64,000 nucleotides of DNA from Mucispirillum schaedleri ASF457 (GCF_000487995.2 NZ_CP097562.1:1-64000); one strand, 5' to 3'. Shown: positions 467-49,772, counted from the stretch's first letter. Numbers and translations: made by a program. The notes: a model not told the origin generated them from the sequence alone.

Positions 467-3400
467 ATGGGAAAAGAAACTAATGTTTTAAAATCATTAG
501 AAGAAAGCTCAGTATCAAGGCGTTCCTTTTTAAAAGGCATATCAGCACTTGGTGCAATGGCTGCCATATATGGCTGCTCTAAAGATGGCGGCTCAGATAT
601 TATATACGGGGGGGGGCTGGCACAGTAGGCGGCATCGCATCAGATGACCTATATTATACAGAAAATCCTACATTCCGTTACGGAACATCTACTCACAACT
701 GTGGTGGTCGCTGTATTATCAGAGCACAAGTTACACCAGACGGTCGTATCGTTCGTTTTCTTACTGATGAAACTAAATATGCTTATGATGGCACATCTAT
801 TGATAACAATCATCCAAATACAACTCAGGCTAGAGCATGTGCTAGATGCCGTGCTTATAAAGGCAGATTATACCATCCAGGTCGTTTAAAATATCCACTT
901 AAACAAACAAAAGAACGGGGCGATATATCAGGCTTTCAAAGAATTACTTGGGAGCAGGCTTTATCAGAAATAGCTGCAAGATTAAAAGCTGTTCAAGGCA
1001 AATATGGTGCAGAGGCTTTTCACCCAATTTATGCCTGCGGTAATATTGCTTCATCATTCCAAGGTGGTTCATATACTGGTTTATTTGAAGTTAATGACTT
1101 TGGAACAATTTCTCCAGCACTCCGTTTATTAGGTGGTGCATCTGGTTATACTTCCGATTATTCTTTCCACCAAGGCTCTTATATGGGTGGTTATGGAACA
1201 GCATATTCTGGTATGATAAATATGAGCCCATCTCCAGAATTTCTTGATAGAAAAATGCATTTTGTAATGTGGGGCTCTAATATTCCTACTACTCACAACC
1301 CTAAAGCTTTTTCATGGACAAAAGGTATTGAAAATATGAAAAACCATGGTGGCACTGTTAAATTTATTGGTCCAGAACTTTCAGAAATAGGTATTGCACA
1401 GGCAAATGAATGGATACGAATTAAACCATATACAGATGTAGCTTTAATTTTAGGTATGCTATATCATATGTTAGATTTAACATTTGATGAAAATGGTAAT
1501 ATAAATCAAGATGGTCTTGATGTAAATTATCTTGATAAAATGGTTTATGGTTTCTTTGAAACTCCAGAATATTGGAGAAACAAGACAACTGGTGAAATTT
1601 CATTTGATAATAAATCTGCTGATACAAATTATATATATGTTGCTGCTATTCCTGCTGGTCAGTCATTTTCTGCTTATATTATGGGTGATGATGCTAGACT
1701 TACAAAAGCTAAATATTCTGCAAGTCAAAACTATATGGCTCAGCAGTTTGCCTCAAAAGTAGATAAAAGAAATACATCTGTTGCAAAGTTTAGCTTTGCA
1801 AATATTCAGAATACTAAATATGACTATAAAAAACAGATGAATGTGAAAAAAACTCCAAAATGGGCAGAAAAAATTACTGGAGTTCCTGAAGCAAAAATCA
1901 AAGAGTTAGCAGAATTTTATTTGAAATGTGCAAAAGATAAGGTGCCAGTTTACAATGAATGGGCTGGTGGTCAGTTAAAACAAAATGATGGCACTATCAC
2001 ACTGTATGCTTTACAGGCTCTTTTGATTATATCTAAAAACTGGGGTATTACAGGAACAGGCATTGCTAATAATGCAATAGGTGTCTCTAAAACAACAGAC
2101 CCTAACCAAATTACAGCTTCTTTACTTCGCCCAGCAGCATGGGATGATGGCACAATTGCTAAAATGGGGCCACACCCAAAAATTTCTGTAACTCAGTGGC
2201 ATAATGCAATAAAAATGGCTTTCAGTAAAGAATTAGCTGCTAATGGTTATAAACCAAATATTCCAGACTGGGTAAAAGCAAGTGGCAAAGGCAAACCAAA
2301 ATATATTGCTGGTAAAAAAGGGCAGGTTTATTTTGATGATGGTGGTGTTAAATCTCTTGTAAACCGTCAAGGTATTACAGGTGTAGGTAAAGATTCACCT
2401 GCAACATTTACTGTAAACAATATAGAAGTAACAATGCCTGATGGCACTAAAAGAAGCGTTACTCATGAATATTATGATTTTAAAGATAATAAGGTTTCAA
2501 CTGGCGGAACATTAGTTGACCAAACTGATAATGTTACATTTTCAGGTTTCCGTTTTATATTAAACTCTGCTGGTAATATTCCTATTAACCAGCATGCAAA
2601 TCCAATTGATTCTGCAAGGATGTATAAAGCACTTCCTACTTATGGTTACGGTCCATATCCAACAGGAAATATGGCAGATGCATTCTATCTTGTTACTTTT
2701 GATAACTTTATGTCACCAAGTGCAAGATATTCTGACTATGTATTACCTGCAAAAACTACTTGGGAGCAGGAAGATTTTGTTACAATAGAAAATAGTGGAA
2801 CTCTTTATGTGGATTCTGTTATTCCGGGACCTGGTGAATCAAAATCAAGCTGGGATTTTGTTAGAGAGTTAATTTATCATTACGGTGGTAAAGACAGTGC
2901 TGTTAACTTTACAGGTTTACAGTCTAACAGTTCATTTAGAGATGTAGTTCAAAAACAATATAATGAAAATATTAAAACTAATGCTCAAAGTCCATATTAT
3001 GGTAAAACTTGGGATGAATTTATTAAAAAACCAATAAGTCATGCAAAACCTAAAACAGAAAGAGTTGATATGGTAACACATTCTACAAGAACTGCTTATG
3101 AAAGCAAAGGTGCAATGGACGCATTTTATCCTAATGTTACAACTGCTGACTGGTCAAATGACAGCGGTGTATTTGGATTTGGTAATGATTTATATGATAC
3201 AAAAATACACAGTTTTGCAGAGACAGAAAGCTGTCCAAAACAAACAGGTATGTTTCAGGTTTATTCTGGCACACTTGTATGGCGTTATGAAAACTTATTC
3301 AGTAAATGGCATGGTTATCTGCCAAAAGCAAAACAAGGTCAAATTAATAAAGATGAAGAAGGGGACCCTGTTGCTTATCCAATTCCTGTATATTTTAACT

Positions 3401-3987: not shown

Positions 3988-4614
3988 ATGCAATTAGGAT
4001 TTTATTTTGACCAAACAAGATGCATAGGCTGCAATGCCTGCACAGTATCATGCAAAGACTGGAACCAAGTAAACCCTGGTCCTGTCCGTTGGAGAAAGCA
4101 GGAAAATCATGAAAAAAATAATGGTTTATCAGTTTTTGAAAACTTAACTATGAGCTGTAACCATTGTGAAGAACCAGCATGTATGGCTGCATGTGGAGCT
4201 AATGCCATTACAAAAACAGATAAAGGTATTGTTATTGTAGATAGAAATAAATGCCAGCAATTACTGTCATGTATTATAGCATGTCCATTTGCAGCACCTC
4301 ATATTGCTGATAATTTACAGGAACCTAAAAAAGGCGAAAACTGGATTGTTGACCACCCTATGCAAAAATGTAAATTCTGCTGGGAAAGAATTGAAGACGG
4401 CAATGCTCCAGTATGTGTATCAGCATGTCCTGTTAGAGCATTAGATTATGGTGATATTGATGACCTGCAAAGAAAATATCCTGATGCAGTTCGTATGAAT
4501 AAAACAGATTTTCCTTATGCTTACTCGCTAAACTCAATAACTGTTACTGATACTAAACCATCATTTTTTATTAAAAAGCGTGCTAAGCTGCCTTTTAGTG
4601 ATGTAATAAAGTAA
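3988..4614 (+). CDS. dmsB: DmsB-like four-cluster ferredoxin subunit
   Basis: Electron-transfer subunit that carries electrons to the molybdenum subunit. It has 208 residues, the usual DmsB length. Four cysteine groups are visible: CIGCNACTVSC near the N-terminus, CNHCEEPACMAAC, a third group CQQLLSCIIAC, and CKFCWERI with CVSACP. In the third group the second ligand cysteine is absent (CxxLxxCxxxCP instead of CxxCxxCxxxCP). By analogy with NarH-type proteins this may house a [3Fe-4S] centre or a modified cluster. It starts 15 bases after the reductase stop with GGGAGG upstream, so it is surely co-transcribed. There is no signal peptide; DmsB proteins are exported as a complex with the Tat substrate. 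Confidence 0.9.
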   Translation: MQLGFYFDQTRCIGCNACTVSCKDWNQVNPGPVRWRKQENHEKNNGLSVFENLTMSCNHCEEPACMAACGANAITKTDKGIVIVDRNKCQQLLSCIIACPFAAPHIADNLQEPKKGENWIVDHPMQKCKFCWERIEDGNAPVCVSACPVRALDYGDIDDLQRKYPDAVRMNKTDFPYAYSLNSITVTDTKPSFFIKKRAKLPFSDVIK

Positions 4615-23798: not shown

Positions 23799-23872
23799 GC
23801 GCCCATAGCTCAACTGGATAGAGCGTTTGACTACGGATCAAAAGGTTGTGGGTTCGATTCCTGCTGGGCGCG
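23799..23872 (+). tRNA. tRNA-Arg (anticodon ACG)
   Basis: The acceptor arms GCGCCCA (23799-23805) and TGGGCGC (23865-23871) pair fully. The D arm is GCTC...GAGC, the anticodon stem TTTGA/TCAAA encloses loop CTACGGA (anticodon ACG), and the T loop is TTCGATT. CCA is not encoded. A terminator follows. A gene-rich mobile region begins just downstream, and tRNA genes are frequent integration sites. Confidence 0.95.
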
Positions 23873-23997: not shown

Positions 23998-24657
23998 TCA
24001 TATCTCTCTGCCAAAGTTTTTGATTACAGATACTACTTTCCCTATAATAGCAACATTATCAGATGTAAAATTATCTATAGTTAATTCTATCGGTTTATAT
24101 TGAGGATTTTCTGATACTAGAATGACTCCATTAGGTATTTTTTGAAGTTTTTTGACAAGCAGAGTATCATCTATGTGGATAACATATATACCTTCAGTTA
24201 AAAACTGTTTCTGGCTTAAATCTATAATTATAAAATCATTATTATCAATTAATGGATACATTGAATCACCAACAGCATTAATAATTGATACATCATTTGA
24301 ATGTGTTATTTTTATCAGAGTAGAAGGTATTGACATATACTCTACTGTATTTTCATCATATACAAGTGCTCCAGAACCTGCAGCAGCAGATACTTCTTTG
24401 AAGTAAGGAAGCTTAATACATTCTGGTATTATTGTTTTTGATGAACCTAGAAACATACTGCCAGTGCCATTTATAAGCCAGTCAGGATTAACATTATATT
24501 TATTACGAAGTTTTAATAAGGTAGAGTCTGATACTGGATTTTTACCATATTCATAATTTTGGACCATAATATAACTTATGTCTATATCTTCTGCCATTTT
24601 TTTTTGTGATAGATTAAGAGTATATCTTAATTCTTTAAATCTGTTTTTTACACTCAT
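23998..24657 (-). CDS. Phage-type repressor (XRE helix-turn-helix plus S24 peptidase)
   Basis: About 219 residues counted from the Met of MSVKNRFKELRYTLNLSQKK; 30 hydrophobic codons upstream lie in the operator region and are not likely translated. Residues 1-65 are a Cro/CI-type helix-turn-helix. The C-terminal half is a LexA/CI-like S24 domain with the catalytic Ser in GDSMYP and the Lys in LLVKKLQ, and an Ala-Gly cleavage-like site (AAAGSGA). It should repress the divergent early genes at 24908 onward and be relieved by the SOS response. It marks the left side of the mobile region. Confidence 0.85.
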   Translation of the reverse strand: MSVKNRFKELRYTLNLSQKKMAEDIDISYIMVQNYEYGKNPVSDSTLLKLRNKYNVNPDWLINGTGSMFLGSSKTIIPECIKLPYFKEVSAAAGSGALVYDENTVEYMSIPSTLIKITHSNDVSIINAVGDSMYPLIDNNDFIIIDLSQKQFLTEGIYVIHIDDTLLVKKLQKIPNGVILVSENPQYKPIELTIDNFTSDNVAIIGKVVSVIKNFGREI

Positions 24658-24722
24658 TTTTATACTCCATAAAAAATAATAAAAGTTAATAAAATAATAT
24701 AAAACTAAATAAAGAATAATGC

Positions 24723-24810
24723 AACATAAAAATACATAAAAAAACAAACTTGTATTATTTAGTATTATTTTGTATTTTTATGTTGACATACTAAATGGTT
24801 TTCTTATAAT
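24723..24810. promoter_or_regulatory. Divergent control region with paired operators and a sigma70 promoter
   Basis: AACATAAAAATACA (24723-24736) and TGTATTTTTATGTT (24771-24784) form a perfect 14-bp inverted repeat. TTTAGTAT (24758-24765) and ATACTAAA (24788-24795) form a second, interleaved one. A near-consensus rightward promoter, TTGACA (24783-24788) with a 16-base spacer and TATAAT (24805-24810), overlaps the right half-sites. Repressor bound here would block the excisionase/SSB operon. Confidence 0.75.
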
Positions 24811-35931: not shown

Positions 35932-37134
35932 TTATACAGCCTTATTTCTTTGCCATAAATACTCTACAAATTGTTCGCTCATAATAAATTCAGGCAAACA
36001 ACCAATCGTTGTAATTTTAGCTATAAATTCACGATGTTCTATAGGTATTTTTTCTTGATAATAAATAGTTCCATTTTCTTTTATCATAAGAATATTTTCA
36101 TCAAATAATTTATGATGATTTTCACATAGCCATAAGCCATTATGCCCGTTAATTGCATGATTAAGTTTTTCTTCATAAATCATATTTGCTTCTTTTTTAA
36201 TGCTAGATACAGACCAAATATGAGCACCTTGTATTAGTTCTGGAATACCACACTCGCATAAAACACATTGTTTAGGACCAATTCTATCAAGAAGATTATA
36301 TATGTATCTTGGAGACCGTAAACTATCATTATATTTAAAAATTTGTTTTTCAAGTGTTATATCTGTAGGGATAATCTTTATTACTCCCATTTCTTCTATT
36401 ACTTTTCTACTTATTTCTGGTAATCTTTTTAAATCTTTTTCTATAATTTCATATAAGGTAATTTTCTGATGTTCATGACACAATAAAGATAGTGCATAAC
36501 ATAGCATACTAGATTCGTATTTATTTGCTCCATAAACTTTACCATATATATCAATAGAATTTGCTCCGCTTTTAGTGATATATGTAGAATTATTACCTTT
36601 ATTTCTTTCGGAATTATTTTTTCTATTAAATATAATATCTTCTATAGATGAAAAAGCTTTAATTTTATGAGTAAGAACATTATCAGCATTTAAAAAATTA
36701 AAGCCGATAGTAGCCATCAATCTATACATAAAAATTAAATAATCTGTTTCAAAATTACCAAGTTGAGTATCTAAAAAATAATAATGTAATTTTTTATTTG
36801 GATAAGAATTACAAAAAAATATATTAAAAGCTGTAGGAACACTTTGCACACTTGAATTTCTTCCATTTGCTCTATTTTCTGAAAAAGATATATAATGAAT
36901 TGTGGACTCGTATTGTAATATTGCGAGTCTGCCTTTATTATATGTGTCAGATAAAAATTCGTCTTTATAATCGTTTTCAACAAAATTTAGAGTATAATCA
37001 TGTTTTCCTGTAATTTTATAACAGACATCAGATAAAACATCATCATTGAGTATATCACTAAAATAAATTCCTGTATTTTTTGATTTCTGTAAATTCTTTT
37101 TTATAGTGAAATGTGGTATGTTTCTATATGTCAT
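35932..37134 (-). CDS. HNH endonuclease, likely restriction enzyme
   Basis: 400 residues. The C-terminal region carries an HNH nuclease: CVLC near residue 290, IQGAHIWSV supplying the first His, HNGLWLCENHHKLFD supplying the Asn/His part and second Cys. The N-terminal about 280 residues are unique and probably recognise DNA. Its start overlaps the end of the adjacent methyltransferase gene by 11 bases (ATGACATATAG), a typical restriction-modification arrangement. Because the methyltransferase is frameshifted, survival requires that the nuclease be inactive, silent or still protected against. Confidence 0.75.
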   Translation of the reverse strand: MTYRNIPHFTIKKNLQKSKNTGIYFSDILNDDVLSDVCYKITGKHDYTLNFVENDYKDEFLSDTYNKGRLAILQYESTIHYISFSENRANGRNSSVQSVPTAFNIFFCNSYPNKKLHYYFLDTQLGNFETDYLIFMYRLMATIGFNFLNADNVLTHKIKAFSSIEDIIFNRKNNSERNKGNNSTYITKSGANSIDIYGKVYGANKYESSMLCYALSLLCHEHQKITLYEIIEKDLKRLPEISRKVIEEMGVIKIIPTDITLEKQIFKYNDSLRSPRYIYNLLDRIGPKQCVLCECGIPELIQGAHIWSVSSIKKEANMIYEEKLNHAINGHNGLWLCENHHKLFDENILMIKENGTIYYQEKIPIEHREFIAKITTIGCLPEFIMSEQFVEYLWQRNKAV

Positions 37135-39101
37135 AATTAACTACCAACACTTCTTTTCGTCTACTGCCAGATATTCCGATAATATCTCCTAATTCAATAA
37201 GGTTATAATTATTTTCTTTTATCCATTTTAAAAATTTTTCATTTATATGCCCTTTATGTTGAATGACATATGAAAGCATGAAATAAATATTTCTTTTATT
37301 AAGCCTATTGGCAAATTGAAATAATTCATCTTCCAAAACTTCATTCCAGCCCTTAAAACCTCTTTTCCCATCATTATATGAGCTTGTTGTTAAATTGTAT
37401 GGTGGATCCATATACACAAATGATTGCTTATCAATATGATTTTCTAATTTAATATAATCCTCACTAAAAAATGTAAACTTACCCTCTTTAATCACCCTAG
37501 AAAATGAAATCATTTTTTCTAATACTTTATCATTAAACCATCTCATACCTACTGGATTATTAAATTGATGACTTCCATTAAATCTAATTTGTTGTTGGTA
37601 ACCATAAAGAATAATTGTAAATAATAGTCTAGAGTCGCGTTTATGTTCTGGTAACGAATTATAATAATTCCGTGCTGCAATATATGCTTTGCCGTTCGCT
37701 TTTTCTAATCCAAATTTATCTGTAATTTTTTTTATATATAAGAGATATTGATAAGTATCGTAAGTGTAAAACGATTTTATTAAATCTGTAACAAAAAAAT
37801 TTATATCATTATATATAACATGATTAAATTCACTATTTATCCCCATATTAAAACCGCCACCAAACACATCTATGAATGATGAATTAGCTTTAGATGGTAG
37901 GATGCGTTTAATATCTTTCACTATTTTAGCCTTACTTCCTATATAATTTAGTGGAGATTCGTATATAACCTGAGAATAATCCTTTTTTTCTATAAAATAT
38001 AAATATTCAAAGTGAGAATCTTTATTTTGAGATTTCCAATTTTTATATTGTTTATAAGGTATTTTCTTACAAGTATATGTATCTAGTTTTCCATAACGTT
38101 TTAATACAGCTTCAATATAAGTTTTTGACATTAGACCATCATCATTATAGCTAAATATAACATATTTAGCTTTTGTTTTAGCGATAATATGTTCAAATAA
38201 TATATGAGCTTTATAATTTTTAGACCAATCAGAACGCATTGGGGCAGTGCTTCGAGAGCCTGTAATTTTGCTAATTTCAGGATTATCATTTAAAACAAGT
38301 GTCTCTAATAAGTGGTATTGAGTGCCGTATTGATTTTGAGTATAAGGAGGATCTAAATATATTATATCACACTCAACATATTCAATAATATTCTCAATTT
38401 TATCGTTGTATTGGAAAATTGTTTTAACTTTTTCATTAATAAATGGAACATTTATAAATTCTATTGCCTTTAAAGCTCGTTTATCCCATGATTTTAAGTA
38501 AGCCCCATAAACCCCAGCTGTATTTGATACTTTAGAAACAGACTCTATGAGACTTGCCATTAAATAACAATACTCATCATAAGTTAATAAATTTTGTGTT
38601 TTCCATTGTTCTATTTGAAATCTAAAAAAATCTATTCTTCCTGCATTTTCAGGAGTAAAATACATTCTTTGAGTTCTAGTTGGTGCATAGTTATTATAAA
38701 AATATCCCTCAATCATTCTATTATGTGAATTTAAATAATCAAAAGGATTAAATCCAAGTATATTAAAATTACATTTAGAAGCACAAATACGACCTCTAGA
38801 ATATATGACAGACCAATTTAAATTATCATTAATTATTATATTGTAATACTTTTTAAAATAATCTGAAACAGAGTATATTAAAATTACATTTAGAAGCACA
38901 AATACGACCTCTAGAATATATGACAGACCAATTTAAATTATCATTAATTATTATATTGTAATACTTTTTAAAATAATCTGAAACAGAACCAGAACCAGCA
39001 AAGGCATCAAAAAAAGTTAATTGTTTATAAAGTAATCCTTTATTTTGTAAAAGAGCCTCAATATCATTTAAAATAGACTCTTTATTTCCTAAAAAACGCA
39101 T
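37124..39101 (-). pseudogene. Double D12-class adenine methyltransferase, frameshifted by a 115-bp tandem duplication
   Basis: Two D12-class (Dam-like) N6-adenine methyltransferase domains are fused, as in enzymes that methylate both strands of an asymmetric site. Domain 1 begins MRFLGNKESI with motif I FDAFAGSGSV and has motif IV LDPPYTQNQYG. Domain 2 begins SPLNYIGSKAKIVKDI with motif I FIDVFGGGFN and motif IV MDPPYNL. A 115-bp direct duplication at 38757-38987 shifts the frame between motif I and the rest of domain 1. Removing one unit leaves exactly 1863 bases, or 621 codons. Domain 2 is intact within 37124-38899. The gene is followed by and overlaps the HNH nuclease gene. Confidence 0.85.
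38757..38987. repeat. Perfect 115-bp tandem duplication
   Basis: Two adjacent copies (starting at 38757 and 38872, about 116 identical bases each when the shared junction is counted) lie in the 5' part of the methyltransferase gene. The period of 115 is not a multiple of three, so the duplication alone causes the frameshift. No differences between copies were seen, implying a recent and revertible event. Confidence 0.95.
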
Positions 39102-39357: not shown

Positions 39358-39435
39358 TAGAATGACATTCTATAATATAATAATTGTCAAGAAAAATAAT
39401 TTACTTGCAATTAAATATAAACAGTATATATTAAA

Positions 39436-39595
39436 AATATATTCTTTCACTTCTATATGAAGTACCCTGCCAATGCAGGCTCAAGGAACTCTATGGAGTT
39501 ACCACTATTTATTACCTATACATTTAAGTTTCAAATATACAGTCTAAATGTGTTTATACCCACAATATTAAAAAATATAAAACATTAGGAGGTTG
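39436..39595 (+). promoter_or_regulatory. Structured leader RNA, copy 1
   Basis: The leader shares a block with the one at 44333-44500: ATGAAGT-CCC-GC, then ATGCAGGCTCAA and GAA followed by a second hairpin. Here CCTGC and GCAGG form hairpin 1, and GGAACTC and GAGTTACC form hairpin 2. Differences in hairpin 2 between the copies preserve pairing, which supports RNA structure. It ends with TAGGAGG before the start codon at 39600. I could not match it to a riboswitch class I know. Confidence 0.6.
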
Positions 39596-39599
39596 AGTT

Positions 39600-39992
39600 A
39601 TGTATTCACAGGCTCAGTTAGAATCTTTTTTTGGCAGTAATTATGATGCTAGCACATTACCTATAGCATTTACACATAATGGGATAATGGCAATTATTCC
39701 TTTTTTAGTTATTATAGGATTAATGTTTATAATAATTCATTATCAAAATAATAAACAAGCTAGGAAAGAATTATTAACAGTTGTTTCAACTGCAAGCAAT
39801 ATAATTAATACAGACAGCACACCTAATCAGATAGTCAGTAATGCTGTTAATATATCTGAAATTTTAGATATAGAAGAATATGCAGAGCAGTCATTTTATT
39901 CTGCAGAAAATGTTACTGCGATAGATATTAACACAATGAATGATACAGCCATTCAATCATTAATATATGCATTAGAAAATAATGTAAAATAA
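39600..39992 (+). CDS. Small single-pass membrane protein, family member 1
   Basis: 130 residues. The N-terminus (QLESFFGSNYDASTLP) is shared with the 139-residue protein at 44504 (QLQSFFGENVDVSTLP). It is followed by one transmembrane helix (about residues 29-48) and a polar cytoplasmic tail. There is no cleavable signal, so it is likely N-out. It is translated from a strong AGGAGG at the end of the structured leader and co-transcribed with the 175-residue gene 11 bases later. The function is unknown; the shared leader, N-terminus and terminator define a repeated module. Confidence 0.7.
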   Translation: MYSQAQLESFFGSNYDASTLPIAFTHNGIMAIIPFLVIIGLMFIIIHYQNNKQARKELLTVVSTASNIINTDSTPNQIVSNAVNISEILDIEEYAEQSFYSAENVTAIDINTMNDTAIQSLIYALENNVK

Positions 39993-40003
39993 GGAGAAAG
40001 AAA

Positions 40004-40531
40004 ATGCAAGGTCAAATATTAAAAGAAAACTTTAAAATTACAAGAGATAAAATAGAAAAAAGCATATCAGAAAAGAAACAGCTGATAGGTTTATCAGTCA
40101 GCAGCTTAAAGGATATAGCAGCTCTTGTAAAGCATAATATGCAGGCATACAGCACAGTATATCCTGCATTACAGAATATGAAGATAGAGAGATTAGGTCT
40201 CTATTATTCCAAAGAAGATGGCTTAATATGCTATGTATTTTCAATTAAGAATATACTTGATAATACAGAAGATTATTTATTTTTCCATTATGACTGGGAA
40301 GAAAAATTTGATTATAAGTCATACTATCTTACATCAAATACAGATAATGTTAAAAATTTATATCTTACTTATGCAGTATTAAACAGCATAAGTGAAAGAG
40401 AAATTGACGCAATGGGTAAAAATTTAGTAGCTGAGGCAGCGAAAGTAAATCCATTAGTCAGAAAACTTAAAGAGCTGCAGGGACAGCTTGGTGGAAAGAC
40501 TAAAACCACCAGCTATCATAAAACAGCTTAA
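40004..40531 (+). CDS. Hypothetical soluble protein of the leader module
   Basis: 175 residues, starting behind AAGGAG. It has a helical N-terminus (ITRDKIEKSISEKKQLIGLS), a beta-rich middle (RLGLYYSKEDGLICYVFSI) and a helical C-terminus ending in a basic tail. No family recognised. It is co-transcribed with the small membrane protein upstream and followed by a hairpin terminator. The second module at 44.5 kb lacks this gene. Confidence 0.6.
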   Translation: MQGQILKENFKITRDKIEKSISEKKQLIGLSVSSLKDIAALVKHNMQAYSTVYPALQNMKIERLGLYYSKEDGLICYVFSIKNILDNTEDYLFFHYDWEEKFDYKSYYLTSNTDNVKNLYLTYAVLNSISEREIDAMGKNLVAEAAKVNPLVRKLKELQGQLGGKTKTTSYHKTA

Positions 40532-40540
40532 TATTATTTC

Positions 40541-40562
40541 AGCTCCCACTAGGGAGCTTTAT
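40541..40562 (+). terminator. Terminator of leader module 1
   Basis: AGCTCCC and GGGAGCT pair across ACTA and run into TTATTT. The preceding TATTATTTC and the AGCT-based stem recur in module 2. Confidence 0.85.
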
Positions 40563-40623
40563 TTGTGTAATATTATTCATAATGACCTTTGCAACAAATG
40601 ATATATAATTTTTATTTTCAACT

Positions 40624-41499
40624 TTATATATCGTAGTTTAAAAGTATTTCCTGCCAATTAATAGGAAAACCCATAAGACTAATATCTACTGTTGGATATT
40701 TATTTAATAATTTAATAAGTTTTGATATAAATTCTTTATTAGTATAACCAGTTTGTTTTAATAAATAAGCAATAATAACTATAGATACAAACAATTTATT
40801 AGGGATAATATCTATATTATTAAACTTATCTTTAGAAAGTCTAGGAACTGTAATAAATATTTTTGAAAATAATAAACCGTGATGAGCAATAATATTTCGT
40901 AAATATACTAAATGTCTTAATCAGCTTATCAAAACTTTTTCAGAGTTTTTTCTAAATCCAAAGTATTCCGTCATTAATTGTTTGGTATAACAATTTTTAA
41001 TGTTTTCAAAAATTTTTGATCCATTTCCAAATGAAGAAGTTTTAAATATCATCCAGCTTGGAGGATTGCCTTGATATTTATTTTTAAAATGTTGCTTAAA
41101 TTTTTCACTAGAACGATCCCAGTGGTGAAATAATTCATTTTTATCATTTTCATAATGAGTACTGTCATAATATAACTCACTGTTAATATACCATGTTTGT
41201 CCATATTTTAATGAAAAAACATTTATTAAAACAGTTTTTAAAGCAATTTTAATTTTGCCAATTTCTTGAAATAATAACCCTTTTAATTCGGTATCAAAGT
41301 TATAATCATTCCAAATGGTTTCCCAAGTAATATTGTTCTTAATAGTTTTATTATTTTTATAAGAATGAAAATAGGGATAAATATAACCCCTTAATCTGTA
41401 GTAACTTATACTATTTAAAATATTGGAAAGCTCTTGTTTTGAAATGCCTTGTAAACCATTTGCTATTAATTTATCAGCAACTTCTAAAGTTATTGGCAT
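40624..41499 (-). pseudogene. Abi_2-family abortive infection gene interrupted by TGA
   Basis: Abi_2 (AbiD/AbiF-like) protein with signature SYYRLRGYIYPYF and a C-terminal HEPN motif. The first 192 codons end at TGA (40923-40921), but the same frame continues for 98 codons to TAA at 40626-40624, giving 291 residues, normal for the family. The continuation begins LRHLVYLRNIIAHHG, where RNxxxH is the expected HEPN ribonuclease site, and ends MGFPINWQEIL as family members do. The stop falls where Abi_2 proteins normally have Trp (the S-W-L of SWLRHL), so a TGG to TGA change explains it. As read, the truncated protein lacks its catalytic motif. Confidence 0.85.
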
Positions 41500-41615
41500 G
41501 TTATTATCTCCTAATATACATGATAATATATATTTTTTAAGGCTCTGGGATTTCTATGATTTTGAATGATATAATTTTAGATATAAAAAAGCAGGGACTA
41601 GCCCTGCTTGTATTT

Positions 41616-41804
41616 TTATAGCTTGTATATACCATACTCATCTTCTAATAATTCATAAAACTCATCATGTGTTATATAATCCTTACATGTTTCTAAAACA
41701 TGACGAATAGTTGCATGGTCATCTTCATCATACAAACTTAAAATATATCTAATCTCATGTGGTTCATTTTTATTGATGAATTTATCATCTCTTTTTTTAT
41801 TCAT
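41616..41804 (-). CDS. Small acidic hypothetical protein
   Basis: 62 residues, rich in Asp/Glu and His, helical (HDEFYELLEDEYGIYKL at the C-terminus). It has AAGGAG upstream and lies 36 bases after the YjzC-like gene in the same direction, so the two likely share a transcript. No family recognised. Confidence 0.5.
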   Translation of the reverse strand: MNKKRDDKFINKNEPHEIRYILSLYDEDDHATIRHVLETCKDYITHDEFYELLEDEYGIYKL

Positions 41805-41840
41805 AAATTTCTCCTTGCAGGGTATTAGCCCTGCATAATA

Positions 41841-42053
41841 TTACTTGTTAATTTTACCAGACTTATTTTTAGTTCCATCAACAAAAATATAAGACTGACC
41901 TGATTTCTGTGTTGGTGGTAATGTTTTACCCTTCACAGCTGTAATTTCTTTTGATTTGCTACACACTTTACCACTATTACTACAAGGCGAATACTGCCCT
42001 GATGCAGGAGCTTTAGTTCCTGGTTTGTAAGTTGTTGTTTTTTTATTTGCCAT
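41841..42053 (-). CDS. YjzC-like small protein
   Basis: 70 residues. TYKPGTKAPASGQYSP near the N-terminus and a later LPPTQKSGQSYIFVD match the short beta-ribbon pattern of YjzC-type proteins, in which KxGxKAPxSGxY is followed by a PPT-G-W/Y strand. Two Cys (CSNSGKVC) could bind metal. The RBS AAGGAG is good. The function of the family is unknown. Confidence 0.55.
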   Translation of the reverse strand: MANKKTTTYKPGTKAPASGQYSPCSNSGKVCSKSKEITAVKGKTLPPTQKSGQSYIFVDGTKNKSGKINK

Positions 42054-42165
42054 AATTATTTCTCCTTACAATAATATTGTTTATAGCTTTATTATTTAAA
42101 ACTACAATTGTACATCAACTATCTAAATTAGATAATTATTCCAAGTTAAATTAAACCAGAAACTG

Positions 42166-42204
42166 TTAGATAGATAGTCCGGCAGCAATTCTATAAACTT
42201 TCAT
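42166..42204 (-). CDS. Possible 12-residue leader peptide
   Basis: ATG at 42204 follows AGGAGG with nine-base spacing and encodes MKVYRIAAGLSI before a stop. It lies upstream of the YjzC-like gene on the same strand. The strong ribosome binding site is what makes it notable. It may be a leader peptide or the start of a decayed gene. Confidence 0.35.
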   Translation of the reverse strand: MKVYRIAAGLSI

Positions 42205-42265
42205 AATAGATTGCCTCCTATTTACATAAACGGCGTAATTGTCGTAATTATCGTCGGACTCCTTA

Positions 42266-42295
42266 TTGACAAATATAATGAAATTATGATATTAT
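42266..42295 (+). promoter_or_regulatory. Sigma70 promoter driving a short transcript
   Basis: TTGACA (42266-42271) is separated by 18 bases from TATTAT (42290-42295). A plus-strand transcript starting near 42302 would run straight into the hairpin terminator at 42356-42395 with no gene between. Confidence 0.55.
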
Positions 42296-42301
42296 ATTTA
42301 A

Positions 42302-42395
42302 GATGATATGCATAATTGTGTTACATTTGTGTTGCATCAGAGTCTATGCAACTACTAGCCATTAAAATACTGCAATATTTTAATGGCTATTTTTA
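42302..42395 (+). ncRNA. Candidate small RNA of about 93 nt
   Basis: It has a good promoter just upstream, a hairpin GTTGCAT/ATGCAAC (42331-42337 with 42346-42352), and a terminator made of a perfect 14-bp stem (TAGCCATTAAAATA / TATTTTAATGGCTA) followed by five T. It is antisense to the last codons of the XRE gene (which ends at 42380), so it may also act on that mRNA. It contains TGCAACTACT, complementary to a segment of the candidate RNA at 39200-39357. Confidence 0.55.
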
Positions 42396-42769
42396 TTGTT
42401 CACATTGTTATTTTGTATTTCTCTTACAAAAGCAATACAAGCTTTAATAAAGATACCATCATCAACTTTAGATGATATCTTTAAAAGTCTAATAACATTA
42501 TTTTTTCTACGACCAAGCATTTCCATATTATCAGACTCTATTATATTATTTATCCTTGCTTTAAGTGCAAGCTGTTTATAATCAACATCCAATGATTCAG
42601 AAAGTTTCACAAGAAACTTCTCATCATGCGGTGCTTTTTTCTTACCAGTTTCTATCTTTGATAAGTAGCTTGAGCTTATTTCTATCTTTGCAGCTAAATC
42701 CTTAACTGCAATCTCACGCTTGACACGTATAAGCCTTATATACTTACCAAAGTTATATTCATTATCCAT
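42380..42769 (-). CDS. XRE-family transcriptional regulator
   Basis: 129 residues. The N-terminal helix-turn-helix (VKDLAAKIEISSSYLSKIETGKK) is of the XRE class, with a helical C-terminal dimerisation region. It is a stand-alone regulator with its own upstream region. Its 3' end overlaps the terminator of the small RNA on the other strand. Confidence 0.85.
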   Translation of the reverse strand: MDNEYNFGKYIRLIRVKREIAVKDLAAKIEISSSYLSKIETGKKKAPHDEKFLVKLSESLDVDYKQLALKARINNIIESDNMEMLGRRKNNVIRLLKISSKVDDGIFIKACIAFVREIQNNNVNNKNSH

Positions 42770-42920
42770 ATTTACCCTTTATTTCTTTTTATTTTTATAA
42801 CTGAACTAAAAATAGATGTCAATAGAAAAATACCATAAAAGGAAATTTTTTGACTAAATTAGGAAATCTTTTTATTTATAAATATATTATAGATATTAAC
42901 TTGTTATTATTATAATTTTT

Positions 42921-43025
42921 TCATATATTTTTGGCTTTTAAAAATGATTCATTATTATGATGAGGATAAACTTCTTCAGCTACTACTGGAATAGATAAAA
43001 GTAAGAATAAAATTGTAAATAGATT
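42921..43025 (-). pseudogene. Remnant of an endonuclease I-like gene 5' end
   Basis: A start-less frame encodes a signal-peptide-like stretch and then VYPHHNNESFLKAKNI before a stop. This matches the early part of the endonuclease at 56649 (LPHNNESFSKAKKLMKK), and the bases upstream (GTGATAT before an A-run) also resemble that gene's ribosome binding region. The rest of the gene is gone. The surrounding 42770-43101 stretch holds nothing else I can support. Confidence 0.5.
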
Positions 43026-43101
43026 TTTTAAATATCACATCTTCATATATTATAATAAGAGGTGATATATAAAAAGAAAAAGCAGAATTTTTGAACCCTG
43101 C

Positions 43102-43353
43102 TTACCTATCAATTTTACTAGATATCCAATTTGAAATAACAGCCCCTAAAAGAAAAGATGTACATGCTGTAATAAGTTCATAAAAAACTTTTAAATAATT
43201 CATTAATAGACGACCAAAATCAAAAGGTAATTCTATTTTTGATAAAGGATAAACTATGACAGTAACAAAAATTAAACCAATTAATACACAAGGTTTAGTT
43301 AATTTTATTAATGAAGAATATATATTTTTTATAATTTCATGTCTAGCATACAT
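43102..43353 (-). CDS. Small membrane protein of the Panacea cassette
   Basis: 83 residues with two transmembrane helices (about 20-38 and 55-76) and a basic end. It overlaps the preceding 65-residue gene by 25 bases, so the three genes from 43989 down to 43102 form one operon. Small membrane proteins are among the toxins neutralised by Panacea-domain antitoxins, which makes this the likely toxin or its accessory part. Confidence 0.6.
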   Translation of the reverse strand: MYARHEIIKNIYSSLIKLTKPCVLIGLIFVTVIVYPLSKIELPFDFGRLLMNYLKVFYELITACTSFLLGAVISNWISSKIDR

Positions 43354-43526
43354 ATCTTCTTTTTGAGAAAGTGTTCTACTTGATTCAACTCTATTTTACT
43401 ATCAAGAATATTCAAATCATTACTACCAGATGAGTATCCAATATATGAACCAGTTAAGAAGTCAGTACCATTTTTATTAAATTTAAAGCGATCACTATCT
43501 TTACTTACCATAGTATTATACCTCAT
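43329..43526 (-). CDS. Short protein between Panacea antitoxin and membrane protein
   Basis: 65 residues, or 60 from the second Met. It overlaps both neighbours by a few bases, typical of tightly coupled toxin-antitoxin operons. Polar with a Gly/Ser-rich middle (GSYIGYSSGSND) and a helical C-terminus. No known family. It could be part of a split toxin with the membrane protein that follows. Confidence 0.5.
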   Translation of the reverse strand: MRYNTMVSKDSDRFKFNKNGTDFLTGSYIGYSSGSNDLNILDSKIELNQVEHFLKKKICMLDMKL

Positions 43527-43989
43527 TATCTGGAGTTAGTGTTACTATCTTAGCAAATTCCCCTTTTATTAAGTCTTCATCTATATCCACACCCCAAAAG
43601 TCAGACATTTTATCAACTTTTGACCATGCACTACCATCTCTATGGGACCAATTAGATAACTGCTGAGCAGAATATTTACCAAAAGTATCAAGCACTTTAT
43701 CTATCATTATATTTAAGTCATTATCATTAACAACTTCTGCACCAATCTCTCTCTGTCCTTGGAGCACAAACTCATGCTTTTTATAAGCTATCTGCAAGCT
43801 CTTAAATATTGGACCATATTGAAAGTATGCAGGAAGTTCATCAAATAGTTTATTATCATTAACATAAAAATATGCTCCATAAACTATATATAATAACTTA
43901 TGTAATTTTGTAATACTTATATCATTAATTTCTTTTTTATAACATTTTTCAATAATTGCATTTGCTATTTTTAGGGCGTTATAACTCAT
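43516..43989 (-). CDS. Panacea-domain (DUF4065/SocA-like) antitoxin
   Basis: 157 residues matching the Panacea fold: ITKLHKLLYIVYGAYF, FDELPAYFQYGPIFKSL, and the C-terminal SAQQLSNWSHRDGSAW. Panacea proteins are versatile antitoxins paired with many unrelated small toxins. Here the downstream overlapping genes (65 and 83 residues) are the candidate toxic partners. The start follows GGAGGTG. Confidence 0.8.
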   Translation of the reverse strand: MSYNALKIANAIIEKCYKKEINDISITKLHKLLYIVYGAYFYVNDNKLFDELPAYFQYGPIFKSLQIAYKKHEFVLQGQREIGAEVVNDNDLNIMIDKVLDTFGKYSAQQLSNWSHRDGSAWSKVDKMSDFWGVDIDEDLIKGEFAKIVTLTPDNEV

Positions 43990-44162
43990 ACTACACCTCC
44001 ATCAGTATATTATACATATAACACTGCCAATATATTACAACTATAAAACAAAAACTTTTAGATAAACTTTTTACTAAATTTGTTTGTTATTTTTTCATAA
44101 TATAATATTTATTAAAAAATGAAAAACATACAATTATAATTATAACCATATTTATAAGGGGG

Positions 44163-44319
44163 TGAGATAAAAAATAACGGAATAGTGAGATAAGCATGTT
44201 GCAGGACTATGTAACTACTATACAATGACTATGCAATTTTTAAAAACTTAAAATGATTTTAACTTTTTTTCACGATTTTTATTTTTGCTTATCTCATCAT
44301 TCCACTAAAAATTATCTCG
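44163..44319. repeat. Large imperfect inverted repeat with four TGAGATAA boxes
   Basis: Left arm 44163-44195 and right arm 44287-44319 are both 33 bases and match in inverted orientation over GAGATAA, GGAAT and TGAGATAAGC. Each arm carries two copies of TGAGATAA or a one-base variant. The 91-base centre contains GTTGCA-N-CTATG-TAACTACTA, which resembles the small RNA at 42302. It may be an operator, partition or transfer-origin site, or a small non-autonomous transposable element. Confidence 0.6.
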
Positions 44320-44332
44320 CCACGATATATCA

Positions 44333-44500
44333 GAGATGAAGTTCCCGCATTATGCAGGCTCAAAGAAACCTACTGGTTTACTATCAATTAGACCTATTAT
44401 ATACAAATAGGCTTCAATAATTAGGCAGTATTAGTTTGTCTAAAAATATTTAATAAAAAGTAAAAAATATAAAAGCAAGATATGTCTTGCAAAGGAGATT
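44333..44500 (+). promoter_or_regulatory. Structured leader RNA, copy 2
   Basis: Homologous to the leader at 39436-39595: ATGAAGTTCCCGC, then ATGCAGGCTCAAAGAA and a hairpin AAACC/GGTTT where copy 1 has GAACTC/GAGTT. It ends at AAAGGAG before the ATG at 44504. A further short hairpin (GCAAGATATGTCTTGC) lies just before the ribosome binding site. Confidence 0.6.
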
Positions 44501-44503
44501 GGA

Positions 44504-44923
44504 ATGAGATTTACTCAAGAACAATTACAAAGTTTTTTTGGTGAGAATGTTGATGTTTCTACATTACCTGCTGTAATAACAGGCAGTAATACAACAGAAA
44601 CATCAATAATAACTATTTTTTTAATAATGCTTGCAATAATTTTTATGATAAATATTACAAAATTGGCTGTTAAAAAAATAGTAGAATCTAAAGATAGAGA
44701 AAATTTTTCATCTTCAAGAGAGCTTATGATTTATAGTTCAAATCAAAATGAAGATAAGAAAACTAATCATAAGCAAAACATATACAATAAATATTATTTT
44801 AATGTGTATGTAAAACAGCCGTATGATAAAAATGGCAAAACCAATACTAAATCAGGATATAAAAATCAAAAAACTTATAAACAAAGTGATGATGATTTTA
44901 TAGATGCAGAAGTAGTAACCTAA
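44504..44923 (+). CDS. Small single-pass membrane protein, family member 2
   Basis: 139 residues. The N-terminus is homologous to the 130-residue protein at 39600 (EQLQSFFGENVDVSTLPA). One transmembrane helix follows (about residues 32-52), then a Lys/Asn-rich polar tail that is unlike member 1. Preceded by leader copy 2 and followed by a terminator matching that of module 1. No second gene follows. The function is unknown. Confidence 0.7.
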   Translation: MRFTQEQLQSFFGENVDVSTLPAVITGSNTTETSIITIFLIMLAIIFMINITKLAVKKIVESKDRENFSSSRELMIYSSNQNEDKKTNHKQNIYNKYYFNVYVKQPYDKNGKTNTKSGYKNQKTYKQSDDDFIDAEVVT

Positions 44924-44931
44924 ATTATTTC

Positions 44932-44959
44932 AGCTCACCATAATAGGTGAGCTTTTTTA
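44932..44959 (+). terminator. Terminator of leader module 2
   Basis: AGCTCACC and GGTGAGCT pair across a six-base loop and run into six T. The flanking ATTATTTC and the AGCT stem ends are shared with module 1. Confidence 0.9.
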
Positions 44960-45136
44960 TGATTATTATTAAAATAAATGTTAATATGGTTGTATGAAAA
45001 TTTATTTACTATCAGTAAGTTATAATTATTGATAGTTAAAACATAATTTATATAGACTGTTTTTGTTTAAAATAAAGCTATATTCTAAATATGATTAAAA
45101 CTAATTACAACCTTCATATGTATTGTTTTCTTTAAT

Positions 45137-47995: not shown

Positions 47996-48345
47996 TCATA
48001 GTTGGCTTTTAAAGGCAAGTTTAAATTTGTTACTAAAAGCACCATTATCAAGTAATAAAATATTTTTTTTAAAAAAAGATTTTGTTGTATTATAAATATC
48101 ATCAGAAACATTGTGAACAATATTGAATTTATTTATATCAATTTCTTCATTATTTACATAATTATATTCTATAAACCTTCTGCTATTATTTCCTTGTTTT
48201 AGAAACATATCAAATAAAATTTTAGCATTTTTGTTTATTTTTTTATTACAGGCACAGCTTCAACTACTGTTGTATCGCTCTCGATTGCAATAAAAAGATA
48301 ATCATACTCACTATTTTTTAGTTTAATTTTTTTAAAAGTATTCAT
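47996..48345 (-). pseudogene. rnlB: RnlB-like antitoxin, frameshifted at an A7 run
   Basis: The ATG at 48345 overlaps the stop of the RnlA-like gene (ATGA). The frame encodes 36 residues and stops just after seven A (minus strand; T7 at 48238-48244). One extra A, or a -1 slip on A-AAA-AAA, joins it to the frame ending at 47996, giving 116 residues. The joined protein has the RnlB pattern: a beta strand start, then KILFDMFLKQGNNSRRFIEY. Its position right after the toxin gene fits rnlAB order. It is either inactivated or expressed by ribosomal or transcriptional slippage. Confidence 0.6.
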
Positions 48346-49772
48346 TGTTTTAATCCATTTGAATTATGCAAGTCAAATGCCTCATCTAATAATTCCAAAA
48401 CTTCCCTAATAATTCTTTTAACATCTTCATAGTTTTCTATAATTTTTATATCAAGCAAAGTAGCTGTAGTATGACATAATGGATGTCTATTATCTTTATA
48501 ATACTTATACATCTTTTCTATATGTTCTGCAAGTTTATTATTTTTATTTTGAATTTTGACTCTATATTTGTCGCGTAATTCATACCCATCAAAGCACTTG
48601 AGACCTTTATTATCAATTTCTATGCCATATGATGTTAATAAATATTTAATTGAGCCTTCTAATGTTCTTAATGCTGGAAATGCATACATTGAATAATCTT
48701 GTAATGTATATGTAGGTTGTTCTAATAACGATGGTTGCAATATAGAAAATAACATGTCAGGAAAAATATTGTAAGATTTGGGTAAATAAAATTTTAAGTT
48801 TATATCTTTTGATTGAAAGTTATAAAACTCTTCATTCATTTTCTTTATTGTATTGGAAAAATTTTCTGTGCTTGATAAAAATATAATTATATCATTATAT
48901 ATTCTATAAGGTTTTCCTTGAAAAAGTATTTTTAAATTCTTGTATTTAGTTATAAAAAATTGCTCGTCATTGTTTTTGATGATATACTGTATTCCATTTT
49001 GTACTTCTTTTGTTTCAATTTTACATGTATCCTGCAAAAATGTAATTAAATTATCAAGATTATTGTTGCTATCTATTATAGTAAATTCCTTATTATCTGA
49101 TAGATTATTACTGGTATTGCATGTATGATTTATTTGAGTTTTTTCTAATATTGCATTTTTTGCTAATGTATCTGCTAATTCATTATATTTATTTCCTGAG
49201 TGAGCTTTTACTTTAATAAATATTACATCTATTTTATTTCTAATTTCTTCAATAAATTTTTTATACAATATCGTATTCTCTTTTTTGGTTTTCCACTCAC
49301 CAGTTATCCATTTTTCTATACCTTCATAATCATAAAAAATTATAACTTCTGTTATATCATTATCTTTTGCCCAATTTAAAGCAGATATTACACCTGCTAA
49401 TTCGCCAGCTACATTTCTCATTTCTATTACATTTGGATTGTCTACTATACCGTAATGGCGGTAAATCTCATTATTATCTTTAAGAATTATATAACCGAAA
49501 CTTGCAAGATTACAAGATTCAGAATAACTACCGTCTACATATATTTGAACAGTATGATTGTTTTCTATTGCTTCTGATGTTATATTATTATTATTTGATT
49601 CAGTAGATATAGTTGATATTGTATTATTTACATAATTTTGGGCTTCTTCCTGTGTTAAAAAACTTTTAAACTCTGCACCAGAATAACCCTTTATTTGTTT
49701 TTCACATTCTGACCAATCTGTAAAAATTCCTATTTCTCTGCCTTTTCTTACTGCATAATATTTTTTCGCCAT
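48342..49772 (-). CDS. rnlA: RNase HI-RnlA fusion, toxin of an RNase LS-type system
   Basis: 476 residues with three parts. Residues 1-50 are the viroplasmin-like RNase H-binding domain (YYAVRKGREIGIFTDWSEC). Residues about 73-210 are RNase HI with catalytic Asp80, Glu124, Asp148 and Asp201 and His191 in KAHSGN. Residues about 225-476 resemble the C-terminal part of RnlA, notably YAFPALRTLEGSIKYLLTSYG and the HPLCH region. E. coli RnlA is an mRNA-cleaving toxin used against phage T4 that needs RNase HI for activity, so a natural fusion makes sense. The downstream overlapping gene resembles RnlB. Confidence 0.75.
   Translation of the reverse strand: MAKKYYAVRKGREIGIFTDWSECEKQIKGYSGAEFKSFLTQEEAQNYVNNTISTISTESNNNNITSEAIENNHTVQIYVDGSYSESCNLASFGYIILKDNNEIYRHYGIVDNPNVIEMRNVAGELAGVISALNWAKDNDITEVIIFYDYEGIEKWITGEWKTKKENTILYKKFIEEIRNKIDVIFIKVKAHSGNKYNELADTLAKNAILEKTQINHTCNTSNNLSDNKEFTIIDSNNNLDNLITFLQDTCKIETKEVQNGIQYIIKNNDEQFFITKYKNLKILFQGKPYRIYNDIIIFLSSTENFSNTIKKMNEEFYNFQSKDINLKFYLPKSYNIFPDMLFSILQPSLLEQPTYTLQDYSMYAFPALRTLEGSIKYLLTSYGIEIDNKGLKCFDGYELRDKYRVKIQNKNNKLAEHIEKMYKYYKDNRHPLCHTTATLLDIKIIENYEDVKRIIREVLELLDEAFDLHNSNGLKQ

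Follow-up and report, generated by a model that had tools for sequence, protein, structure and literature searches.

A family of covarying leader RNAs in Mucispirillum conjugative elements, putatively acting as processive antiterminators

The two leader RNAs found in a 64,000-nt stretch of the Mucispirillum schaedleri ASF457 genome (NZ_CP097562.1:1-64000, hereafter the window) belong to an RNA family without known relative that is larger than the pair first noticed. The covariance-model search proposed with the original prediction recovered 13 leader copies, in 3 of the 51 genomes of the phylum, and the leader looks to be a component common to operons of one F-type integrative and conjugative element (ICE). 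Judging from sequence context, we give about an even chance to the proposal that this Mucispirillum ICE family uses it as a processive antiterminator RNA acting in cis, with read-through of terminators as its predicted effect. We hold with moderate confidence that the RNA family is new and that its function is most likely a variant of that of processive antiterminators.

Distribution and fold of the leader RNA

The two window leaders, which had been described as homologous, aligned over 49 columns, 32 of them invariant (39452-39500 and 44331-44379). A model of four leaders from the window and from two further genomes, G002 and G008 (model R1), yielded further copies in G002 and G008, and a refined model of helices P0-P2 (R2) raised the total to two copies in the window genome, seven in G002, and four in G008, all of them Mucispirillum. 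With R2, the window copies scored 59.7 and 48.2 bits, the rest of the window did not rise above noise, and the last copy to be added, on L069, scored 29.5 bits. The 12-nt leader core occurred seven times in the 2.35-Mb genome, the five sites outside the pair being without the rest of the leader, and a weak R1 match in genome G012 (E=0.8) was not recovered by R2. Over 3 kb, one G002 contig matched the window at 97% identity, with the leader sequence largely rewritten and its helices kept.

A match to an already described riboswitch family had been raised as a possibility, and the leaders had no Rfam match. Specifically, the whole window returned no family from Rfam 15 at gathering thresholds, nor did the leaders alone at E-values up to 10, where sub-threshold matches were at chance level. 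Protein queries found no relative in viral contigs; pattern scans of these contigs gave five matches that were rejected for surroundings unlike the leader and two more that were rejected as unrecognised by R2, and another scan was empty. In a plasmid collection, the 130-aa and 175-aa window proteins (see below) had no homologues and two ICE proteins had distant ones only. When the ArdC neighbour was scanned against genome contigs, only the assemblies of G002 and G008, both fragmented, matched.

The leader (~110 nt) comprised a row of hairpins, P0 to P4, with linkers UYC, YYCAARGA, and ACU; between copies, the stems changed with compensation and the linkers were nearly constant. P0 had the form ACUNN/NNAGU, P1 occurred as CCUGC/GCAGG, CUGCC/GGCAG, UUGCC/GGCAA, and CUACC/GGUAG, and P2 was five base pairs long, capped in most copies by a UAY-type loop. 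The earlier observation that the second stem differs between the window leaders yet still pairs was borne out, with AACUC/GAGUU and AAACC/GGUUU paired in their respective copies. In fixed registers, 96.6% of P0-P2 cells were paired with 21 double-sided changes, which none of 500 shuffles equalled, and slid partner registers were at most 44% paired; the alignment used (A7) keeps register through N padding in the loops and omits rows with unusual loops. When 3′ arms were swapped between copies in 20000 shuffles, the true arrangement was equalled once for P1, never for P2, and 15 times for P0. P4 paired in every copy examined, its register being chosen per copy, and P3, though plausible, failed the arm-swap test; registers of P3, P4, and P5 (a further pairing described below) were picked copy by copy, so that the pairing counts of these helices err on the high side. 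Single-sequence folding of six copies returned mostly the same hairpins, with z from -0.7 (degraded window copy 2) to -5.7. A long-range helix contained in R1, GAAGU/UUUC, was dropped, since in further copies GAAGU covaries with upstream ACUUC as P0.

The two leader units of the window

Leader copy 1 (39449-39556, + strand), delimited by both models, the arm-swap test, and the fold, consisted of P0 (39449-39463), P1 (39466-39479), the linker CTCAAGG, P2 (39487-39500), a weak P3, and P4 extending to ~39556. Its weak promoter (39405-39432, +; TTGCAA-16-TATATT, 9/12 consensus bases) occupied the site where nine other copies have a near-consensus one. Copy 2 (44338-44444, +; models and fold) had a bulged P1, an intact P2, and both P3 and P4; it is probably a remnant, because the P0 5′ arm and the upstream promoter have been lost (best promoter candidate 7/12).

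The proteins following the leaders had been called related, and they shared 40% identity over 47 residues (E=1e-9); the layout ascribed to them also held, with a Q-x-QLxSFFGxNxDxSTLP start, a single hydrophobic helix, and unrelated tails. These single-helix membrane proteins are of 130 aa (39600-39992, +; N-terminus QLESFFGSNYDASTLP), without family match above cut-off, and 139 aa (44504-44923, +; N-terminus QLQSFFGENVDVSTLP). Directly 5′ of the unit 2 Shine-Dalgarno sequence lay the inverted repeat of a hairpin, GCAAGAUAUGUCUUGC (44475-44490, +). The additional 175-residue gene reported for one unit was located at 40004-40531 (+); its product, of unassigned function, had homologues 89-95% identical behind a leader in G002 and G008, and its predicted structure was of low confidence (pLDDT 56.6) with no structural match. 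Both units closed on the + strand with intrinsic terminators of the AGCT type, as similar as originally predicted, AGCTCCC-ACTA-GGGAGCT (40541-40558) in unit 1 and AGCTCACC-ATAATA-GGTGAGCT (44932-44953) in unit 2.

Among 40 related genomes searched for the shared N-terminus, one more such protein was found, in the same-genus G002. The protein behind a G008 leader had a different N-terminus and helix and the same C-terminal part. The membrane protein at 39600-39992 and that at L045 6222-6686 had the C-terminal half in common and differed in N-terminus and helix; leader-proximal parts thus appear to have been exchanged by recombination.

The host element of these units is a partial ICE (23799-59600, boundaries approximate) that adjoins tRNA-Arg (23799-23872) and contains an S24 repressor, SSB, TraG_N, and restriction and defence cargo. 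This island looks decayed, and both window leaders are leftovers in the decayed element, heading short one- or two-gene units. Each unit has one terminator with opposite-strand genes beyond, so that antitermination would have no obvious target there; such units would no longer need read-through.

Leader-headed operons of the element

In G002 and G008, the leaders headed operons of the F-type ICE, the contigs of which carried, by Pfam, TraU, TraK, TrbC, a TraD/TraG-type coupling protein, and an S26 peptidase, alongside a TraC-like ATPase assigned by sequence and position. The leader-headed operons contained ArdC, an SSB-like gene, an ERF recombinase, a DUF3799 nuclease, an AAA ATPase, and an RNase H-like gene. 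Nine of the 13 copies stood behind a TTGACA-17-TATATT promoter (11/12 consensus bases) and three, including window copy 1, behind a weaker one (9/12). P0 started 13-16 nt after the -10 box in 12/13 copies, and from this fixed spacing the leader RNA is predicted to start within ~10 bases of the first base of the transcript. A structured RNA at or near the operon start, which is one trait of the antiterminator class, was therefore found by covariation and promoter spacing, given these predicted start sites. As a separate observation, four leader promoters (L064, L065, L066) had an AACAWWTGTT dyad resembling a repressor site in the spacer from the -35 to the -10 box, and the genes of the window island include one for an S24-type repressor (23998-24747).

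The original prediction envisaged a dedicated pair of leader and membrane protein. Of that reading, a conserved, covarying leader RNA without Rfam match in a mobile element stood, and the dedicated pairing did not: a leader was in front of 3/3 QLxSFFG proteins (two in the window, one in G002), and the ten other leaders had different first genes. Seven operons began with a ~50-aa basic hydrophobic peptide (seven members aligned) that no family model matched; besides the three QLxSFFG proteins, the remaining leaders preceded one mosaic membrane protein and one SSB-like operon, and one ran towards a contig end. With first genes so varied, the leader RNA has no single protein as its partner. In eight operons, the sequence just after P4 paired with the region around the first gene's start codon (P5; CAUAACA/UGUUAUG, CAUGACA/UGUCAUG, UGUCA/UGACA), and 1/5000 shuffles were as good in a swap test that freely searched for the best run; in the ~50-aa-peptide operons, this suggests a separate translation control. 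Other ~50-aa single-helix proteins in leader operons (L064 1964-2122, -; L069 ~4157-4309, -) had polar N-termini (MNLTNLITTISKGANNNTF... and MELLIGTTSAISAGARNDSF...) that recall the QLxSFFG N-terminus.

If the leader were an antiterminator RNA, the genes behind it should carry terminators that leave no space for a new promoter. We scored co-directional neighbours for a strong intrinsic terminator ending <45 nt before the next start codon, applying the same gene caller and terminator definition throughout. Such promoter-less internal terminators were present in 9/36 leader-downstream pairs versus 0/31 other pairs from the element contigs and window island, and in 3/194 pairs across ~320 kb of chromosome. 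The excess had a Fisher P of 1e-6 (1e-4 to 3e-6 under three other definitions), a value that is somewhat flattering because the analysis was planned after a few cases had been seen, and the G002 and G008 operons tested are related to each other. Examples included L065 3094-3115, before a gene at 3139, and L083 2064-2040, before a gene at 2016, and the ERF/DUF3799 terminator kept its position, 20-22 nt before the next gene, in both G002 and G008, its stem differing between the two. Intrinsic terminators inside the operon, another trait of the antiterminator class, were thus found in the leader operons and not in the two short window units.

Candidate mechanisms and known relatives in function

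In the antiterminator reading, nascent leader RNA would bind the polymerase during elongation, or else a host elongation factor, the polymerase would then ignore the intrinsic terminators between operon genes, and transcripts begun elsewhere would stop at them. Against it, the internal terminators might do no more than attenuate, or a following gene might be expressed from cryptic promoters within upstream genes; the lack of an obvious target in the window units and of any Rfam match also counts against it. The genomes searched contained neither a NusG paralogue nor a ProQ/FinO homologue, the remaining candidates being the polymerase itself as direct target, a host factor, or an element protein that escaped recognition. 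More tentatively, and with a little less confidence than in antitermination itself, the leaders may form a multi-copy RNA antiterminator layer over a whole Gram-negative F-type ICE, with operon-specific copies of rewritten stems and fixed linkers, often joined by a start-sequestered membrane-peptide partner.

The same RNA at many promoters, its conserved single-stranded linkers, which could form a protein-binding surface, and the P5 start-codon pairing would also suit a shared 5′ regulatory RNA that lets a ligand, or a protein of the element or the host, set translation or stability across all the ICE operons together, with terminators unaffected. We consider this rather unlikely: it leaves unexplained why promoter-less internal terminators are confined to leader-headed operons, the varied first genes and leader distances are awkward for a translation switch, and no ProQ/FinO homologue or second NusG was present in the genomes searched. 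The idea that leader and small membrane protein form a defence or toxin-antitoxin module, raised originally, recalls type I toxins in that small hydrophobic proteins have structured, start-sequestering leaders, and AbiD-like, HEPN/RES, and RnlA-like genes are in the neighbourhood. We consider it improbable, given that none of the three module proteins matched a defence or toxin model, the same leader precedes other genes, heading ArdC, SSB-like, and AAA-ATPase operons, and no antisense RNA candidate was identified.

Two further alternatives concern transfer itself and its inhibition. ArdC, SSB-like, ERF, and nuclease genes, which stand behind several leaders, are typical of a leading region, where the hairpins could act in the transferred DNA strand as a zygotic (Frpo-like) promoter or loading site. 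A single-strand DNA promoter is nevertheless very improbable, because the promoter part folded as single-stranded DNA no better than shuffles (z -0.2 to -1.0); moreover, the -35 box was unpaired in most of the four promoters folded, so that the boxes did not become double-stranded, and ordinary double-stranded promoters lie ahead of the hairpins. Stems that vary between copies and alleles with structure kept might instead reflect antisense RNA pairing, as in FinP/traJ fertility inhibition, but conservation sits in the linkers between hairpins and a FinO/ProQ protein was not found in the genomes searched, rendering this the most improbable reading of all.

RNA-only or RNA-plus-protein antiterminators are established for phage HK022 (PMC9378689), Tn916 (PMC11658703), and pLS20 (PMC8955417). 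The latter two are conjugative elements, in which internal terminators guard against stray transcription (PMC11658703, PMC8955417). By analogy, and with no detected homology, our best reading is that the leader would work like HK022 put, Tn916 canT, or pLS20 conAn2. The put RNA is likewise a cis-acting hairpin RNA, with putL just downstream of an early promoter and two similar copies in different operons that read through terminators (PMC9378689), and its fold binds the zinc-binding domain of the β′ subunit. However, put is a ~70-nt RNA built of two long stem-loops and a triplex, whereas the Mucispirillum leader is predicted to form about five short hairpins, reaches seven copies per genome, and belongs to an ICE of a phylum other than that of put. 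canT has been studied as a single region of 452 bp in a Gram-positive ICE, unlike the compact, repeated, covarying hairpins of this Gram-negative F-type ICE. The conAn system (ConAn1 protein and conAn2 RNA) resembles the leader as an antiterminator at the start of a terminator-rich conjugation operon (PMC8955417), and the small protein after many Mucispirillum leaders could be a comparable partner; compared by description rather than sequence, conAn differs in heading the sole conjugation operon of Gram-positive plasmids. The EAR RNA of Bacillales exopolysaccharide operons, as cited in PMC8955417, is also an RNA-based processive antiterminator, but it is chromosomal rather than a mobile-element RNA, and the leader had no Rfam match of any kind.

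Few RNAs with the ability to carry polymerase past terminators have been described (put, EAR, conAn2, and canT), and in the literature consulted those of conjugative elements, canT and conAn2, are Gram-positive. If the antiterminator reading is true, it would suggest that in Gram-negative ICEs, too, internal terminators are coupled to an antiterminator, as they are in phages and Gram-positive plasmids, and that such coupling keeps stray transcription from switching on element genes. The 13 natural variants, compact and strongly covarying, would reveal important bases and make the mechanism testable.

Finally, several other features of the window island were noted. By Pfam, a 476-aa protein (48342-49772, -) had HEPN toxin domains of the RnlA/RNase LS type together with an RNase H1 N-terminal domain and an RNase H domain, making it a natural fusion between RNase H and an RNase LS-like toxin. 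Beside an HTH gene and upstream of an AbiD-like gene, the region 42266-42395 (+) had a near-consensus promoter (TTGACA-18-TATTAT), ~90 nt without obvious gene, and a 14-bp terminator, and is a candidate small RNA with a stable fold (z -3.9). The AbiD/Abi_2-like gene appeared truncated in both genomes in which it was seen (window 40921-41499, -; L044 617-1138), with a leftover 56-aa ORF downstream. Inside a methyltransferase gene, a 115-bp unit was in exact tandem duplication (38757-38987), and the reading frame was split into ORFs at 37124-38899 and 38853-39101.
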